A stretch of DNA of 45,917 nucleotides, from the NCBI GenBank assembly GCA_003602635.1, contig QQSJ01000061.1, positions 1 to 45,917 of the forward strand, in the 5' to 3' direction. Below the pieces are notes generated by a model, which saw only the letters and a list, made by a program, of their open reading frames with translations, was not told where the DNA came from and searched no databases. The translations under genes were made by a program, and so were the position numbers. This document shows, one piece after another, positions 7,608 to 15,448 of this stretch. Source of the DNA: Candidatus Poseidoniales archaeon. GTDB lineage: Archaea > Thermoplasmatota > Poseidoniia > Poseidoniales > Poseidoniaceae. The number at the start of each line of letters is the position of its first letter. The stretch's first letter is position 1.

Positions 7608-7846
7608 TGGACGCCGTCGACCTCGTCGGGTGGATCCTTGCGGCCATCTCGATTGCAGCTCTTGTGTGGATGGTGCGGTCGGCCGCGCTTCGCGACCAGG
7701 CCCTCGATGACCGAATTGCGGCCGGTGATCTGTCGCTGTTTGACGAAGGCAACCTCGACATCGAAGAGGTCGTTCGTGCTCCAGCCGGCTCAACGGTTCA
7801 ACCCGGTCGCTTGATGGAGCTTGGTCCACAGCCACCGTTCAGATGA
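7607..7846 (+). CDS. Small hypothetical protein with an N-terminal TM helix
   Basis: ATG overlaps pyrF stop; MDAVDLVGWILAAISIAALVWMVRSAALRDQ... Confidence 0.55.
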   Translation: MDAVDLVGWILAAISIAALVWMVRSAALRDQALDDRIAAGDLSLFDEGNLDIEEVVRAPAGSTVQPGRLMELGPQPPFR

Positions 7847-8735
7847 CCAAAAGACCGGTTTGGTAGGCGTATCCAGCGCCACCTACCGCTGCAAGAACGA
7901 GCATCAGGAAGAAGCGGAGGCCCCACCTTCGACGCTTCTTCGGTGGCGAGGCCGCGCCGTTGATGATTTGCCTGAACTCATCAAACGATACCTTCGAATC
8001 TCCATCGGTGTCGCCAAGGTGGAGCATCTTCCTCACCTTCTCGTCCGTCACCTCCCCACTGTCCAAGCTCATCTTGTTGAGCGCAAACCTCAGTTCCTCG
8101 AGTTCAATGTAGCCCGACTTGTCCCTGTCGATCTCCGAGAAGACCACGCGCAGCTCGTCATCAGCAAATTCGGGCTCGGGCCCCTTCGCCTTTCCACCCT
8201 TTGCGAGCGGAATCAATTCCGCATCCTCGGCCACCGCGGGCAAGGGCGGTAACGGAAGATCAGGGAGCGGAAGGTCGGGGAGTGGTAGGTCCAGAGGGGG
8301 TGGCGTCCGGTCTGGGTAGAGCTCTTCGAGGTCTTCCAGCCCCGGTGCTGCGGGCACGGGTCCCTCAACGGCCGACCAAATGGCGTCAAGTGCACTGCGC
8401 GTCACCGGCTTCTCCAGCACCGCCACGGCACCGGCGCTGAAGCCTGCGTCCTTGGCGAGCGAAAGCATGCGGCGAGGCGCGACGAAGATGATGCGTTCGT
8501 CTCCCCCGTGCTCGCGCATTTCCAGCGCGGCGAGGTGGCCGTCCAGGGACGGAAGATCCAGAGCGAGCACGACCAATTCTGGGTCGAGGCGGATGTATTC
8601 GTCCACCGCCTCGTCGCCGTCTTCGCACACGTTGACGTCGAAACCGCGGCCTTGCAGCAGTTCTGTCATCCGCAGCACGTTCATCGGATTTGAGTCGACC
8701 AGCAGGACGGTCGGGGCGACGTCCGAGGCGGTCAT
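7839..8735 (-). CDS. Receiver-like domain + Pro-rich linker + EF-hand pair + C-terminal TM anchor
   Basis: CheY-like VLLVDSNPMNVLRMTELLQGRGFDV...VVLALDLPSLDG...VLEKPV; linker DLPLPDLPLPDLPLPPLP; EF loops DRDKSGYIELEE and DTDGDSKVSFDE; polybasic KKRRRWGLR then FFLMLVLAAVGGAGYAY. Confidence 0.88.
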   Translation of the reverse strand: MTASDVAPTVLLVDSNPMNVLRMTELLQGRGFDVNVCEDGDEAVDEYIRLDPELVVLALDLPSLDGHLAALEMREHGGDERIIFVAPRRMLSLAKDAGFSAGAVAVLEKPVTRSALDAIWSAVEGPVPAAPGLEDLEELYPDRTPPPLDLPLPDLPLPDLPLPPLPAVAEDAELIPLAKGGKAKGPEPEFADDELRVVFSEIDRDKSGYIELEELRFALNKMSLDSGEVTDEKVRKMLHLGDTDGDSKVSFDEFRQIINGAASPPKKRRRWGLRFFLMLVLAAVGGAGYAYQTGLLVI

Positions 8736-8784: not shown

Positions 8785-9144
8785 TCAGAGGGACTCGCTC
8801 GGGCCGTCCCTTGGGGAAGCGAAGGTCTGCTTCACGGTCTCAGCGTCCCGCTCCTCTTCCTCGAGTTGGCGTTGGCGGGCCGGGGCTTTGACGAACTGCA
8901 GCCTCAATTCAGACAGCAAGCCGTCGAGCAACGCATGCGATTTCGCGTCCAAATTCCCTTTCGTTGTGGTTTGCAAGGCTCCGATCAAATCGATGGCTTC
9001 CTTCGCCTCGGGGAGGTTGAATCGGAAGCCGCCCTCGGGATGGGGAAGGTGCCCAAGGTTCAGGAGCGCGGTGCGCTGAAGCATGTGAATCAGTTGAAAC
9101 AGCCGTTCAGTGGACTCGTTGGGAAACGTGGCGTCCATCGGCAT
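8785..9144 (-). CDS. DUF1844-like protein
   Basis: RTALLNLGHLPHPEGGFRFNLPEAKEAIDLIGALQTTTKGNLDAKSHALLDGLLSELRLQFV resembles the DUF1844 pattern. Confidence 0.7.
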   Translation of the reverse strand: MPMDATFPNESTERLFQLIHMLQRTALLNLGHLPHPEGGFRFNLPEAKEAIDLIGALQTTTKGNLDAKSHALLDGLLSELRLQFVKAPARQRQLEEEERDAETVKQTFASPRDGPSESL

Positions 9145-9147
9145 CCC

Positions 9148-10485
9148 TCATTCGAAAATTTCCTCGATCAGCCAATCCGGATCGAAGGGTGTGAGGTCTT
9201 CGTATCCTTGGCCCATGCCTGCGAACACAATCGGGCGTCCGGTGGCGAAGGCGATCGACAAGCCTGCGCCGCCTTTGGCGTCGGTATCGAGTTTGGTCAA
9301 GACGGCCCCGTCAAATTGGAGCATGGACTGGAACATTCGAGCCTGTTCAACCGCGTCGTTGCCCGCCAAACTGTCGCCGACAAAGAGGGTCAGGTGAGGA
9401 TTTGCAACGCGCCTTACCTTGGCGAGTTCGTTCATCAGGTTCGTCTTGTTCTGCATCCTTCCTGCCGTGTCCACCAAGACCACGTCGATGCCTTTGGCCT
9501 TGGCCGAGGCGATGGCGTCGCGTGCGATGGCCGCGCTGTCTCCGCCGCGTTGGCTTGAGATGCAGCGAACGCCGAGGTTCTCGCAATGCTGTTCCAATTG
9601 CTGGATGGCTCCCGCGCGAAAGGTGTCTCCTGCTGCAGCGATGACCGTATGGCCCTGTGCCATCAGCCGATGGGCGAGTTTCGCCGTGGTGGTGGTCTTG
9701 CCCGTGCCGTTGACGCCGACGAGCATGATGACCACGGGGGCGTCGCCGGCCTCGAGGGCTTTCGCGACGGTGGCGTCAAAATCCCAGTATCCTGCTTCGA
9801 GGAGCGAACGGAGCGCACGCTTCAGGCTGGCCTCAAGCACTTTCGCCAAATCCGCACCACGGCGGAGACGTGCGCCGATCAGTTGGTTGCGCAAGGCGTC
9901 GACCACGCCGGTGACGGCGTCCGATGACACGTCCGATTCCAACAGGGCCCATTCGAGTTCTTCGAGCAGGTCGTCCAAGGCCTTGCTTGATTTGATGACG
10001 CGCCCGCCTTCGCTGACCACGCCACCTCCGAGATCGATTCGGATGTCGTCGCCCGATTCGGTGGTCATGTTGGCCTCAACGCTTGATCCGCGAGGTGCTT
10101 GGGCCACCTCCACCAGCTGCCTTCCAGTCGTGGACCGCATCATGCGGAGTTCGACCTTGGGCGCGGCGGGGGCTCGTCGCTTGGGTTTGGGAGCTGGAGT
10201 GGGTTGCGCGACCGGTTCCTCTTCTGGAAGCTCCCAATCGTCCTCCGGGGCCTCCCAATCGTCCTCGGGAGCCTCCCAATCGTCGTCTTCTGGATCGTCC
10301 CAATCCTCCTCGGTTGACGAGGGTGGGGTCGCCGAAGGGGTTTGAGCGGGTTGTGCCTGCGCTTCCTCGCGGGCGCGGAGGGCCGCCTGCGCTTCGTCCG
10401 ATCCGTCCTCGGCCAACATGCCTTCTGCATCGGATGCATCGACCGTTTCCTTGACGCGGCGGCGGAAGCGGTTGAACAGCCCCAT
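9148..10485 (-). CDS. ftsY: Signal recognition particle receptor FtsY
   Basis: VGVNGTGKTTTTAKLAHRL, DTFRAGAIQQLE, DVVLVDTAGRMQNKTNLMNEL, LTKLDTDAKGGAGLSIAFATGRPI; acidic N-terminal repeats. Confidence 0.96.
   Translation of the reverse strand: MGLFNRFRRRVKETVDASDAEGMLAEDGSDEAQAALRAREEAQAQPAQTPSATPPSSTEEDWDDPEDDDWEAPEDDWEAPEDDWELPEEEPVAQPTPAPKPKRRAPAAPKVELRMMRSTTGRQLVEVAQAPRGSSVEANMTTESGDDIRIDLGGGVVSEGGRVIKSSKALDDLLEELEWALLESDVSSDAVTGVVDALRNQLIGARLRRGADLAKVLEASLKRALRSLLEAGYWDFDATVAKALEAGDAPVVIMLVGVNGTGKTTTTAKLAHRLMAQGHTVIAAAGDTFRAGAIQQLEQHCENLGVRCISSQRGGDSAAIARDAIASAKAKGIDVVLVDTAGRMQNKTNLMNELAKVRRVANPHLTLFVGDSLAGNDAVEQARMFQSMLQFDGAVLTKLDTDAKGGAGLSIAFATGRPIVFAGMGQGYEDLTPFDPDWLIEEIFE
10225..10315 (-). 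repeat. Short tandem repeats encoding (D/E)DDWE(A/L)PE in the FtsY N-terminus
   Basis: Repeated 'cctcccaatcgtcctcggg(a/g)g' units (about 24 bp) on the + strand; protein DDDWEAPEDDWEAPEDDWELPEEEP. Confidence 0.8.
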
Positions 10486-10494
10486 GATGTCACC

Positions 10495-11055
10495 TCAGTC
10501 GTCCAACGTCAACTCAGAGCCGAAGCGCCTTCGGCGAGGGGCAGGGGCCCGCTTTGCTTCAGACTCGGGTTCTGGTTCGTCTGGGCTGGTCGTTTCAGCG
10601 GGGGCGGGCTCGGCCTTCGCGTCGCTTTCGATTTTCTCGGCCATGGCGTTGAAGGCGATCGCATGTTGTGCAACCTCCTCCTCCAATTCGCTCATGCGGG
10701 CTTCAAGATCGTTCACGATGCTTTCGAGGTCCTTCTGGCGCTGCTGAGTGACCTCCAATGCACCGGTCCAGGTGCGCTCACCGTACACGCCGCTGCCGAG
10801 ATCAACGATGGAGCGCCCTTCGGCGTCAGAGGGTGCGAGTGGGAGGCTGACGCCGGCCCCGATGCCCACGTGGCCGCTGGCGGTTCCTGCGGTAGCGGAC
10901 TCAAGCAGCGAGGTCAACACCGCTGCGGTTCGGCGGTGGTCTTCGACGACTTCAAGCACGCCTTGCTTGCGGCGATCGAGTTCCTCCAAGCGTTGCCTGC
11001 TGCGCTCAACAATGCGGGCCAGCCGCTGCAATTCAGCACGTGGTTCGGAGGACAC
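10495..11055 (-). CDS. pfdA: Prefoldin alpha subunit-like
   Basis: N- and C-terminal coiled coils around a beta-hairpin core (VSLPLAPSDAEGRSIVDLGSGVYGERTW); directly upstream of ftsY, the common archaeal order. Confidence 0.82.
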   Translation of the reverse strand: MSSEPRAELQRLARIVERSRQRLEELDRRKQGVLEVVEDHRRTAAVLTSLLESATAGTASGHVGIGAGVSLPLAPSDAEGRSIVDLGSGVYGERTWTGALEVTQQRQKDLESIVNDLEARMSELEEEVAQHAIAFNAMAEKIESDAKAEPAPAETTSPDEPEPESEAKRAPAPRRRRFGSELTLDD

Positions 11056-11097: not shown

Positions 11098-11367
11098 TCA
11101 TTCTTCTTCCGTAGGTGCGACCGGGCCGCCTGCGGCAGCGATGGCCTCGCGGAAGTGGTGGAGCACGCTGGGCTCTTGGGAGGTGCGGGGATCGATCTCC
11201 GCAACAGAATCCAGGTGGATGGAGCGGCGGGTGACGTTGTGGCGGGATCCCATGATGGAGTACACGCGGTGCTCCGCATCGCCCGCATCAGCGGCGGGGA
11301 GGTCCATCGAGAACGCTTGACGTTGCTGGCCGAAAGGCGCGGTGCCCTTGACGCGGAAGGCCTTCAT
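11098..11367 (-). CDS. rplX: Large-subunit ribosomal protein L18a / LX
   Basis: MKAFRVKGTAPFGQQRQAFSMDLPAADAGDAEHRVYSIMGSRHNVTRRSIHLDSVAEIDP; real start is the internal ATG at 11367. Confidence 0.85.
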   Translation of the reverse strand: MKAFRVKGTAPFGQQRQAFSMDLPAADAGDAEHRVYSIMGSRHNVTRRSIHLDSVAEIDPRTSQEPSVLHHFREAIAAAGGPVAPTEEE

Positions 11368-11467
11368 GAGGCCCGCGACCGGCCGTTCCGTCTTAAACGC
11401 GGCGGCGTGGCATCGCCGGGGGGCTGATAGAGGCAGAGCGTGTGCTGAAGGCGTGCGCGCCGCTCTG

Positions 11468-14374
11468 ATGATCGTCCTGCTCCTCGGCGCAGGGCTTGGT
11501 CCAATGGCTGCGCCCGCCCATGAATCGGGGCTGGTCGTGCTCGAAGTCGAGGAAGGCGTGTGGACCCAAGCCACATGGACGGCCTTGACGGAAGACGGGT
11601 GGTCTCTCCTCCGACTGGCCACATGGACGGAAGCCGTCGTTTGGCACGATGGGGCGAGAGCCCCGCCGGAGGGATTCCTCATGCGCGCCGTGCCGGTGCC
11701 TGACGTCGATGCCTTGGTGGTGGATCAGCCGGTCAGGCTGGTGTTTGAACCTCGTCTGCCCGCTGAGGCGGTCGAACGGTTGGTCGCGGCCGGTGGCCCA
11801 ACGACCGTGGAACCGAACATGCGTGGCGTTCAAACCGTCATGGTGCCCTTTCACCCCACCCAACAACACTGGCCTGGCCTGCAACAAATCGAACCCGTCC
11901 TCCACACCGAGTCCCGGAACGACCGAGGCGCTGGCTTGCTACAATCCGGATCACAAAGCGACTTCCCATTGTGGGCGCTTGGTTTCAACGGAAGCGGCGT
12001 GGTGCTGGCCACCGCCGACAGCGGACTGGACATGGATCACGCTTGTTTCCGACAGGGAACGGACGTGATTGGAACACCGGGGCCTGACCACAGAAAGGTG
12101 GTCTTGCTCAACACCACCCTCGATGACGGGGACACACCCGGTCACAGCGATTACCGCCATGGGACCCACACCGCCGGCACGCTCGGATGTGAGCCAGTGG
12201 ACTGGAACCGTTCCAACGCGCCCGGCGAAGGGGTTTCGTTGGCGCATGGTGCTCGCCTCGTCGTCGCCGACATCGTTGATGCCAGTGGGTGGTCTCCGCC
12301 TTCGTTCGACGCCCTGTTGTCGGAAGCTGCGCTGCAGGGAGCCGTCATTCACGCCCACTCATGGGGCGATGACACAACGGAATACACGGCCAGGAGTGAG
12401 GCGCTTGATCGGTGGTCGTTGGAACACCCTTGGACCCTGGCGTTCATTGCACCGGGCAACGGTGGACAGGTGCTTGAGCCTGCCAATGCCCTCAACGCGG
12501 TGGCGGTTGGAGCCACGACGGTGGGCACCCCTGACGAGCGGTGGGTCGGTTCGCCTGAAGGTCCGACGGTGTTTGGCACCGATGGCATTGGTCTCCTTGT
12601 GCCCGGAGCGCACATCGTCTCCGCGAAAGCCGACGGAGATCCGAACAGCATGAACGGGGATTGGCGGGGTTCCAGCGGCACGAGCATGGCGACGCCCATG
12701 GCGGCCGCTGCGGCCGGTGTGCTGCAACAGATGATCGAGGACGGCGTGCTGCACGGCGGCTCGCCCAGTGAAGCGACCCTCAACCTCACCGCACACGCCC
12801 CGATGTGGGCGAGCCCGGACCCTTCTGGCCTGGCTTGGGCGTCCGATGGATGGACGCCGTCGGGCCCCATGCTGCGCGCAGCCTTGTCGCTAAGCGCCGA
12901 ACCGCTTCCCCCGGAACACGCCAACGGAGGAGCGGGGCCGGGAGGATTGAGCAACGCTCACGACGGATGGGGTCAACCACGGCTGGAGCGGTTGCTCGCG
13001 CCCACCCAGATCGATGGAGCGTGGGATTTGACGCCGCATGTGTTCCTTCACGACGCGTACCGGCTTCATGCCGGAACGCCACAAAGCCTGCTTGGCGAAC
13101 GTCTGAACCTCACTGGGAACACCGATCGTCTCGGTGAAGCCCCATGGAACGGTTCCGGGGCCGTGGGGCCTTTCCTCGCCGAAGGGGACCGTTACCAACG
13201 GACGTTTGACCTCCGACCGGGAGAGGACCTCGACGTGCGGTTGGCCTACCCTTCGCTGGGCGGTCAAGCCGTGGATGACCTCGTGCTCTACGTTCACTTG
13301 GACGACGGTCATACAGCGGCGTCGGGGATTGATTTCGGAGGGGCTTCCGTGTTGAGTGACGACGTCCCATCGCCTGAACGGTCAAACGAAACGCTGCGTG
13401 GAATCCACATCAACTCGGACGATCTTGGCAACGCCACGTCGGCGACGGTGGAGGTTGTCGCTCGCCACGTGGTGCCAGGAAACAGCCCGGGTGCTTTGGG
13501 TGCAGACGGGGATCGCATCGGTTTCGCACTGGCCGTCATGGGGGTGGAACGGGCGCCGCCGGGGCCACAAGACCTCGATGAAGACGGTGTCCTTGACCCA
13601 CTTGACGCGTGTGCGTCAGAACCCGCAGGGGCCGTCGATCTCGACGGCGACGGATGCCCTGACGACCGTGACATGGACGGCATCGACGACGTGGATGATG
13701 CGTGCCCGGACGAAGATGCTCGCCCGGCGGACGGCAACGCCGACGGATGCCTCGACGATTCTGATGCGGACGGCGTCGCCGATCACCTGGATGCTTGCCC
13801 GGCCACCACGGCTGACCCTGCATGGCCCACGAGGGCCGATGGATGCAGGCCCGCGGATGTTGTGCCCGTGGTGGAAGCATCGTTCCCCCAACCCAATCTT
13901 GCTCCTGACCAAGCGTTGGAAGTGGTGGTGATGGTGCGTGACGCCGACGGTGACGGGGGCGAACTTCTCGCCTCGTTGGTCGTTGACGGCGTGCCCCTCC
14001 CGGGCAGCCACATGCACGCCAACGGCACAGGACACCACATCCTCGTCTGGAACGCGACGGTATGGGCCGTGCCTTGGGTCGAGAACGGTTCGCTGGTGGA
14101 CGTGATCTTGACCTTCGAAACGTCGAACGCATCGCCGGAAGCGACGCTTGAGGTGGCCATGCCTGTGGGGGGCGTGCGTACCGTCGTCCTCCACCCTCCG
14201 CCTTCTGCCCCAAGCGAGGATATGTCGCCGTCCTTCCGACCGGCTCTCTTGGCTGGGCTGCTTTTGCTGCTTCTTGTGGCGTTGATTCGGTGGCGTGAGC
14301 CGCCTGAACGGGACCCTGCGGGACCACGCGACCCCTTTGTCACCTCGTCGAGGCCTCGAAAATCAGAAGAGTGA
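11468..14374 (+). CDS. Secreted subtilisin-family (S8) serine protease with TSP3-like Ca-binding repeats and C-terminal TM
   Basis: Signal-like MIVLLLGAGLGPMAAPA; catalytic D (ATADSGLDMDH), H (YRHGTHTAGTL), S (GSSGTSMATPMAAAAAGVL); DLDEDGVLDPLDAC... repeats; C-terminal TM PALLAGLLLLLLVALIRWR. Confidence 0.9.
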   Translation: MIVLLLGAGLGPMAAPAHESGLVVLEVEEGVWTQATWTALTEDGWSLLRLATWTEAVVWHDGARAPPEGFLMRAVPVPDVDALVVDQPVRLVFEPRLPAEAVERLVAAGGPTTVEPNMRGVQTVMVPFHPTQQHWPGLQQIEPVLHTESRNDRGAGLLQSGSQSDFPLWALGFNGSGVVLATADSGLDMDHACFRQGTDVIGTPGPDHRKVVLLNTTLDDGDTPGHSDYRHGTHTAGTLGCEPVDWNRSNAPGEGVSLAHGARLVVADIVDASGWSPPSFDALLSEAALQGAVIHAHSWGDDTTEYTARSEALDRWSLEHPWTLAFIAPGNGGQVLEPANALNAVAVGATTVGTPDERWVGSPEGPTVFGTDGIGLLVPGAHIVSAKADGDPNSMNGDWRGSSGTSMATPMAAAAAGVLQQMIEDGVLHGGSPSEATLNLTAHAPMWASPDPSGLAWASDGWTPSGPMLRAALSLSAEPLPPEHANGGAGPGGLSNAHDGWGQPRLERLLAPTQIDGAWDLTPHVFLHDAYRLHAGTPQSLLGERLNLTGNTDRLGEAPWNGSGAVGPFLAEGDRYQRTFDLRPGEDLDVRLAYPSLGGQAVDDLVLYVHLDDGHTAASGIDFGGASVLSDDVPSPERSNETLRGIHINSDDLGNATSATVEVVARHVVPGNSPGALGADGDRIGFALAVMGVERAPPGPQDLDEDGVLDPLDACASEPAGAVDLDGDGCPDDRDMDGIDDVDDACPDEDARPADGNADGCLDDSDADGVADHLDACPATTADPAWPTRADGCRPADVVPVVEASFPQPNLAPDQALEVVVMVRDADGDGGELLASLVVDGVPLPGSHMHANGTGHHILVWNATVWAVPWVENGSLVDVILTFETSNASPEATLEVAMPVGGVRTVVLHPPPSAPSEDMSPSFRPALLAGLLLLLLVALIRWREPPERDPAGPRDPFVTSSRPRKSEE

Positions 14375-14443: not shown

Positions 14444-15448
14444 ATGAGCGAACGACTGTACATCGGCATTGACCTCGGCACGTACCAATCGACCATCGCA
14501 TCGAGCTCCGGCACCATCCACACTGTGGAAACCGTCGTCGGCCGACCCAAGGACCCGGTGGCCCGAAACATGCTCAAGCGTGACGTGCTTTTTGGCGCTG
14601 ATGCGCTCAAGCACAAGATGTCCTGCGACCTGTACCGGCCGATGGCCAAGGGCGTGACGCAAGACGATGAAGCCAACCTGGCGGCCGCGAAGGCCTTCAT
14701 GGGCCACCTCATCGAAACGATGGACCCCGAAGAGTACGACGAAGTCGTTGGCGTGGTGTGCTCGCCCTCCCACGTTTCCTTCACGGACAAGTCCAACCTT
14801 GTCGCCACCCTCCGTGGCCAAGTGAACGCCATCATGGTCGTGAGCGAACCCTTCGCCACCGCCTACGGAATCGGTGAATTCCACGGCACCATCGTCGTGG
14901 ACATTGGTGCAGGCACCACCGACATCGCTCGCCTCTACGGGACCTTCCCCAACGACGACGACCAGATCAGCATCGCCGAAGCCGGCGACTGGCTCGACCT
15001 CCACCTCATGGAACTGATTCGCAAGAAGTTCACCGGCGCTCAAGTCACGAAGGACATGGTTCGCCGCTGGAAGGAAGAGTCGTCGTACGTGGGCGGCGAA
15101 GCCCGTGAAGTCCTCGTCTCCCTCTCCGTCGAAGGCAAGCAACAGCGTGTCGACATCGGCGACCTCATCGGTGAAGCATGCGAAGCGCTTGTGCCCCTCC
15201 TCGGAAACGGCATCAAGAAGACGGTCGCTGGCGCCGACCCGGAATACCAGGAAACGTTCCGCCAGAACATCATCCTCTCTGGTGGCGGCTCCCTCATCGA
15301 GGGCATCGCTGACCGCTTGGCTGCGGAGATCGCCGACATCGGAAACGTCGCTGTTCGCTGCGTCGAAGAGCCGATTGACAAGGTCGCCGTTGGCGCTGTG
15401 GCGCTCGCGCAGGACATGCCCGAAGACATGTTCACCTCCATCGAGTGA
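14444..15448 (+). CDS. MamK-like bacterial-type actin (filament-forming ATPase)
   Basis: Phosphate 1 LYIGIDLGTYQSTIASSSG; VVGRPKD; VVSEPFATAYGIGEFHGTIVVDIGAGTTDIA; EYQETFRQNIILSGGGSLIEGIADRL; closest recalled family pattern is MamK. Confidence 0.85.
   Translation: MSERLYIGIDLGTYQSTIASSSGTIHTVETVVGRPKDPVARNMLKRDVLFGADALKHKMSCDLYRPMAKGVTQDDEANLAAAKAFMGHLIETMDPEEYDEVVGVVCSPSHVSFTDKSNLVATLRGQVNAIMVVSEPFATAYGIGEFHGTIVVDIGAGTTDIARLYGTFPNDDDQISIAEAGDWLDLHLMELIRKKFTGAQVTKDMVRRWKEESSYVGGEAREVLVSLSVEGKQQRVDIGDLIGEACEALVPLLGNGIKKTVAGADPEYQETFRQNIILSGGGSLIEGIADRLAAEIADIGNVAVRCVEEPIDKVAVGAVALAQDMPEDMFTSIE

Follow-up and report, generated by a model that had tools for sequence, protein, structure and literature searches.

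The window, i.e. the whole stretch of 45,917 nucleotides analysed here, comes from a metagenome-assembled genome (MAG) of the Poseidoniales (Marine Group II), which has a size of 1.70 Mb and is 69% complete. A preliminary description of this DNA had drawn attention to an open reading frame at 7839-8735, and the frame and its motifs are confirmed here. The description omitted the strand: the gene is read on the minus strand, from an ATG at 8735 down to 7839, and encodes 298 amino acids, while the plus strand is broken by stops in the first frame of the interval. The features of the gene and its upstream neighbours are as follows.

7839 to 8735, minus strand: tail-anchored pseudo-receiver with an inserted EF-hand pair, 298 amino acids (translation, Pfam, AlphaFold2 model, orthologues)
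8382 to 8708, minus strand: pseudo-receiver domain, residues 10-118, with Ala58 at the phosphoacceptor position, Asp14-Ser15, Ala86 and Lys109 (Pfam 2.4e-14, whole-genome search coordinates, fold match to solved receivers)
8307 to 8363, minus strand: motif that immediately follows the receiver and is conserved across the order, residues 125-143 (consensus GPIPEAPGLEDLDxLYP, 86% mean column identity, 110 sequences)
8184 to 8306, minus strand: proline-rich DLPLP-repeat linker, residues 144-184 (translation; model confidence below 50 at 168-184)
7965 to 8159, minus strand: calmodulin-like EF-hand pair, residues 193-257 (loops 203-214 and 242-253), restricted to a single clade within one genus (Pfam, tree)
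7857 to 7946, minus strand: C-terminal membrane helix preceded by the basic patch PPKKRRRWGLR, together residues 264-293, with a tail of about 5 residues (predicted helix 271-293)
8785 to 9144, minus strand: DUF1844 protein, encoded upstream of the pseudo-receiver at a distance of 49 bp and missing in many f2 genomes (Pfam 1.5e-18)
9148 to 10485, minus strand: FtsY, the SRP receptor GTPase; its N-terminus has MGLFNRFRRRVKE and its A domain is acidic (TIGR00064 4.6e-94)
10495 to 11055, minus strand: prefoldin alpha-like subunit, the first gene of the conserved block (Pfam Prefoldin 2.1e-07)

Both of the Pfam domains that the preliminary description expected were found in the 298-residue protein, Response_reg at residues 10-117 (2.4e-14) and EF-hand_7 at residues 193-257 (2.6e-13). 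An AlphaFold2 model built from 58 sequences (mean pLDDT 79) has a complete receiver fold, a short helix at 135-139, a disordered linker, the EF-hand pair and a C-terminal helix at 271-293. The DLPLP repeats, the polybasic patch and the single C-terminal membrane segment are thus where they had been placed, as judged from the translation and the model helix. Divergent from the prefoldin-ftsY block, on the plus strand, lies a gene for a secreted subtilase-like protein (11342-14374); as read from its translation, it has a C-terminal membrane helix and Asp-rich repeats that resemble thrombospondin type 3. An actin/MreB-like protein (MreB_Mbl 3.5e-22, Actin 2.6e-14) is encoded at 14444-15448, also on the plus strand.

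The receiver domain and its active site

In the window protein Response_reg (PF00072) scores 53.9 bits against a curated cut-off of 30.2, and the same family is matched in all 58 Poseidoniaceae members. A Foldseek search with the receiver of the model gave 528 matches to solved receivers at E<=0.001, with TM-scores by target length of up to 0.88. The acidic pair lies in VDS (13-15), the switch region reads VAP (85-87) and the conserved lysine is found in EKP (108-110), all as first reported. In VVLALDLPSLDG, Ala58 precedes Pro62 by four residues, and in the model strand b3 (54-58) finishes with Ala58, where the phospho-Asp classically sits. Could the Asp of LDLP, Asp60, be a hidden phosphoacceptor? 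This was ruled out: a sequence alignment to the receiver structure 3t6k puts the Asp of that protein on Ala58, and in both the alignment and the model Asp60 lies two residues past the site.

The orthologues tell the same story. Among 110 distinct sequences position 58 is Ser in 59, Ala in 46 and Gly in 5, and Asp in none. Asp14 is present in 90/110, while position 15 is mostly Asn, with Asp in 1/110 and Glu in 2/110; switch position 86 is Ala in 84/110 and Thr or Ser in 20/110. The earlier claim of a receiver that has no usable canonical Asp is therefore borne out by the pocket model, the 3t6k alignment and the survey of homologues. By sequence, the window domain would be classed with the pseudo-receivers (PsR, ALR), in that it is recognised as a receiver and the residues for phosphotransfer are missing.

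Three receiver matches were found in the genome that hosts the window. A second receiver protein, of 365 amino acids, was seen on contig 73 of genome G000 (L166:2263-3360); it has a long unannotated C-terminal part and no obvious output domain. A histidine kinase was not found in the host genome and is likely to be absent from it, at 69% completeness; the two HATPase_c proteins that it encodes were identified as TopoVI-B and, from the sequence, MutL. In most relatives the number of HATPase_c hits is two or three and their lengths are similar; G043 is one of a few exceptions.

Conservation of the family and origin of the EF-hand pair

Of 59 relatives, 53 have a match to the protein; they cover two families and all 20 genera, and a few of the matches are to EF-hands only. 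A profile search found a match in 230 of 289 genomes of the class. The named orthologues are from Candidatus Poseidoniaceae or Poseidoniales. EF-hands are absent from 53 of the 58 aligned Poseidoniaceae orthologues and from all f2 orthologues read. The conserved protein is therefore a tail-anchored pseudo-receiver that lacks EF-hands and occurs throughout the Poseidoniales. In those genomes of the order that have no pseudo-receiver match and were tested, FtsY was likewise not matched at the threshold used. Such genomes are thus uninformative on loss, and nearly all members of the order probably have the gene. Some weak matches in the sister order (f3; G061, G063, G072) were rejected as orthologues: they are not located near ftsY, their alignments are limited to profile positions 8-87, and they resemble ordinary receivers. 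The search gave three ftsY matches in f3; in the single neighbourhood that was read (G061, L148), ftsY is not followed by a pseudo-receiver.

A hydrophobic C-terminal segment is found in 110/110 orthologues and is in most of them preceded by basic residues (median 6). By the positive-inside rule the anchor would hold the protein on the inner face of the membrane, towards the cytosol. In two loci of genus g15 (L041, L044) the orthologues have 270-272 amino acids, and a C-terminal extension with extra hydrophobic segments replaces the short tail. The most conserved parts among the 110 orthologues are the EDGD loop, helix a3 (HLAALEMREHGG, 91%), the LDIPSLDG turn and the motif that comes after the receiver, GPIPEAPGLEDLDxLYP (86%). 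Since polar residues that are expected to be exposed are conserved in a3, this helix may well be a docking face.

The EF-hand pair has a different history. Its loops in the window protein, DRDKSGYIELEE (203-214) and DTDGDSKVSFDE (242-253), are both canonical, with ligands at positions 1, 3, 5 and 12; EF-hand_7 (PF13499) scores 50.6 bits against a cut-off of 30, and two canonical loops arose in just 2 of 20,000 residue shuffles of the protein. The best sequence matches among solved structures are calmodulin and calmodulin-like proteins, including the calmodulin C-lobe. The two loops reported in the preliminary description are thus upheld, and their ligands are intact in five species. These five are among eight sampled species of a single Poseidoniaceae genus, and the pair is absent from the three others, as it is from every other orthologue read. 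In a tree of receiver, DUF1844 and FtsY the five group together, with the EF-less G004 as their sister (UFBoot 86 and 76). This fits a single recent insertion in one genus, at a point after the flexible linker and before the anchor. That EF-hands are the ancestral core of the protein is rejected, since they are limited to one clade.

EF-hand pairs are common in the order, with a match in 39/39 genomes versus 1/14 control genomes, and others are fused to e.g. an APC-type transporter (L176) or a zinc-ribbon protein (L164). The insertion therefore fits a habit of the Poseidoniales. A close donor was not found within the order, where other EF pairs are at best ~35-38% identical; eukaryotic genomes were outside the search.

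The ftsY block and a possible docking role

Prefoldin, ftsY, DUF1844 and the pseudo-receiver are co-directional and are followed by a convergent OMP decarboxylase gene. While the preliminary description did see a tail-anchored pseudo-receiver, it missed this order-wide conserved place beside ftsY. In 122 of 123 loci with enough flanking sequence ftsY lies directly upstream in the same direction, often with DUF1844 between; in many f2 genomes, which lack DUF1844, the pseudo-receiver comes directly after ftsY. The OMP decarboxylase adjoins the pseudo-receiver in 89 of 114 loci. The gap to the upstream gene has a median of ~54 bp (44-74 bp between DUF1844 and the pseudo-receiver in the f1 loci measured), and none of 115 upstream gaps contains any of four TATA-like words. 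These short gaps without TATA-like words suggest that the ftsY block and the pseudo-receiver form one transcript. One locus, L117, is the only one in which DUF1844 and the pseudo-receiver are present but ftsY is missing; its place is taken by a divergent secreted peptidase-like gene, on a short contig that could be chimeric.

Does the pseudo-receiver also evolve in step with FtsY? A branch-rate covariation test limited to linked genes gave a rho of 0.58 for the pseudo-receiver with FtsY against ~0.04 with OMP decarboxylase. A second round, in 28 genomes, added the unlinked controls SRP54, SecY and TopoVI-B; the value for FtsY was then 0.28 (p 0.05) and that for TopoVI-B 0.30. In this round the test did recover FtsY-SRP54 (0.47) and SRP54-SecY (0.56). 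With these controls the signal is non-specific, and we have discarded it as proof of a partnership. FtsY was not singled out, and the case for a role with FtsY therefore comes from gene order.

We propose that the pseudo-receiver is a phosphorylation-independent docking protein on the inner face of the membrane that works with FtsY, and that one lineage has added a Ca2+-binding module. This is our leading reading, with a probability of roughly 0.4. The receiver would not be switched by phosphorylation but would offer a constitutive docking face made up of a3 (HLAALEMREHGG), the EDGD loop and the EAPGLEDLDELYP motif that follows, and the flexible proline-rich stalk would hold this module at the cytoplasmic side of the membrane. 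Docking would most likely help to bring FtsY and its SRP-ribosome cargo to the membrane, or regulate FtsY there. In the one Poseidoniaceae lineage the EF pair would probably bring in a conformational or docking input that depends on Ca2+ and acts close to the membrane; Ca2+ binding beside the anchor would alter the stalk, or the contact of the stalk with lipid or a partner.

Nearly as likely, in our ranking, is that the same anatomy serves another job: a scaffold for some other membrane process (envelope, division or transport) that merely shares an operon with ftsY, a gene expressed in all cells. The outcome of the unlinked-gene rate test speaks for this, as does the slow movement of the whole block, in which the convergent OMP decarboxylase is often kept too. 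Furthermore, the N-terminus of Poseidoniales FtsY (MGLFDRFRKRV) is basic and looks amphipathic; it is likely a membrane helix of its own, so an extra anchor for FtsY is not obviously needed. However, the link to ftsY outlasts those to other neighbours (122/123 versus 89/114) and survives the loss of the intervening DUF1844 in f2. We keep docking with FtsY slightly ahead.

A more specific version of the FtsY docking proposal is that the pseudo-receiver is a membrane-anchored subunit of the SRP receptor, a counterpart of SRbeta in role and not in descent, with Ca2+-controlled targeting in one clade. We regard this as unlikely. Some further features of the targeting machinery were seen in these genomes. 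Between its A and N domains the Poseidoniales FtsY has a conserved element, M.[ST]TGRxLV...IDLGGGVV..GGRxIK, that was not seen in the f3 representative; its TTGRxLV part and the pseudo-receiver are both most diverged in genus g12, which we give as an observation only. In three Poseidoniales genomes SecY was read (L263, L286 and L280, from G011, G018 and G037) and has 639-648 amino acids, with an N-terminal extension of ~150 residues in which several additional hydrophobic segments precede the usual first membrane helix; the sister order has open frames of 569 amino acids. From these sequences the translocon of the Poseidoniales looks remodelled.

The preliminary description had inferred that the receiver fold may be coupled to Ca2+ sensing at the membrane. 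Taken as a rival reading, the pseudo-receiver would be the output of a Ca2+ sensor, and sensing Ca2+ there would be the chief task of the protein. The EF pair probably does bind Ca2+, to judge from its ligand positions, which are kept while dN/dS stays below 1 in all pairs of the EF clade (0.11-0.77, NG86). Such purifying selection on canonical loops in five species favours a sensor, and so does the frequency of EF pairs in the order; a study of genome content also noted that each Poseidoniales family has calcium-binding families of its own (PMC9258230). But only 5 of 58 orthologues have EF-hands, EF-less species occur in the same genus, and across the EF clade the pair evolves faster than the receiver (57-64% versus 92-97% identity). 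Ca2+ sensing as the core of the system is therefore not supported, and we consider this reading improbable.

Less probable still is a receiver that is switched covalently, through Asp60 or, in relatives, Ser58, by a kinase that our searches missed. Asp60 is nearly invariant (107/110), Lys109 is mostly retained (96/110) and Ser is the commonest residue at position 58, all of which would suit such a switch. Against this, Ala or Gly occupies position 58 in 51/110 orthologues, the second acid and the switch Thr are mostly gone, and the host genome yielded no histidine kinase.

Finally, an assembly or frame artefact that fused a receiver gene to a calmodulin fragment might be feared in an incomplete MAG, but its probability is negligible because five MAGs carry the same architecture, the other four being 74-91% identical over the full length, and the EF-less sister (L009) aligns across both borders of the insertion.

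Comparison with known systems

Receivers without the phosphoacceptor Asp are known, and PsRs can act by protein-protein docking (PMC12632262, PMC4395418). The Poseidoniales protein resembles them in its receiver fold, by Pfam and by structure, in the missing Asp and in being an orphan with no visible kinase. It differs in being tail-anchored and placed next to ftsY across an order, in having no DNA-binding or enzymatic output, and in the EF pair of one clade. The main texts of PMC12632262 and of the ALR survey PMC4395418 make no mention of EF-hand or transmembrane receiver architectures, nor does that of a census of archaeal two-component systems mention EF-hand receivers. This agrees with the initial impression that the architecture is not a described family; none was found in the searchable literature, papers under other licences being outside it.

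A good point of comparison is FrzS of Myxococcus xanthus, an unphosphorylated PsR that acts as a docking beacon and binds SgmX through its a3-b4-a4 face (PMC12632262). The Poseidoniales family would likewise dock, a3 is its most conserved helix, and FrzS structures (PDB 2gkg, 2i6f) are among the sequence matches of the window receiver (3.1e-06). FrzS differs in its coiled coil and its work in motility, and to our knowledge it has no membrane helix.

The other calmodulin-like EF pairs of the Poseidoniales (L176, L164) are also canonical helix-loop-helix pairs appended to other domains. The window pair differs from these in its position, between the linker of a pseudo-receiver and a membrane anchor, as well as in sequence.

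Eukaryotes have a beta subunit in their SRP receptor, SRbeta, which is a small GTPase anchored at its N-terminus. If the link to FtsY is real, the Poseidoniales protein would be like it in being a membrane-anchored partner of the SRP receptor. The two differ in that ours has a receiver fold and a C-terminal anchor, with no homology between them; no Ras-like GTPase domain was found in the window protein or in the Poseidoniaceae members, whose Pfam matches are to receiver and EF-hand only.

A review from 2025 knows of no published functional study of any archaeal pseudo-receiver and lists the switching of the bacterial ones as unknown (PMC12632262). The family described here is a well-defined archaeal pseudo-receiver with a fixed genomic partner and putative docking surfaces that are conserved. 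Some members have the inserted Ca2+ module while close relatives lack it, which makes the family a natural experiment on 'dead' receiver domains. Archaea have been stated to have FtsY only (PMC2905702, PMC2572998), and the pseudo-receiver is a candidate membrane partner for it, in a group that is among the most abundant of the marine archaea.
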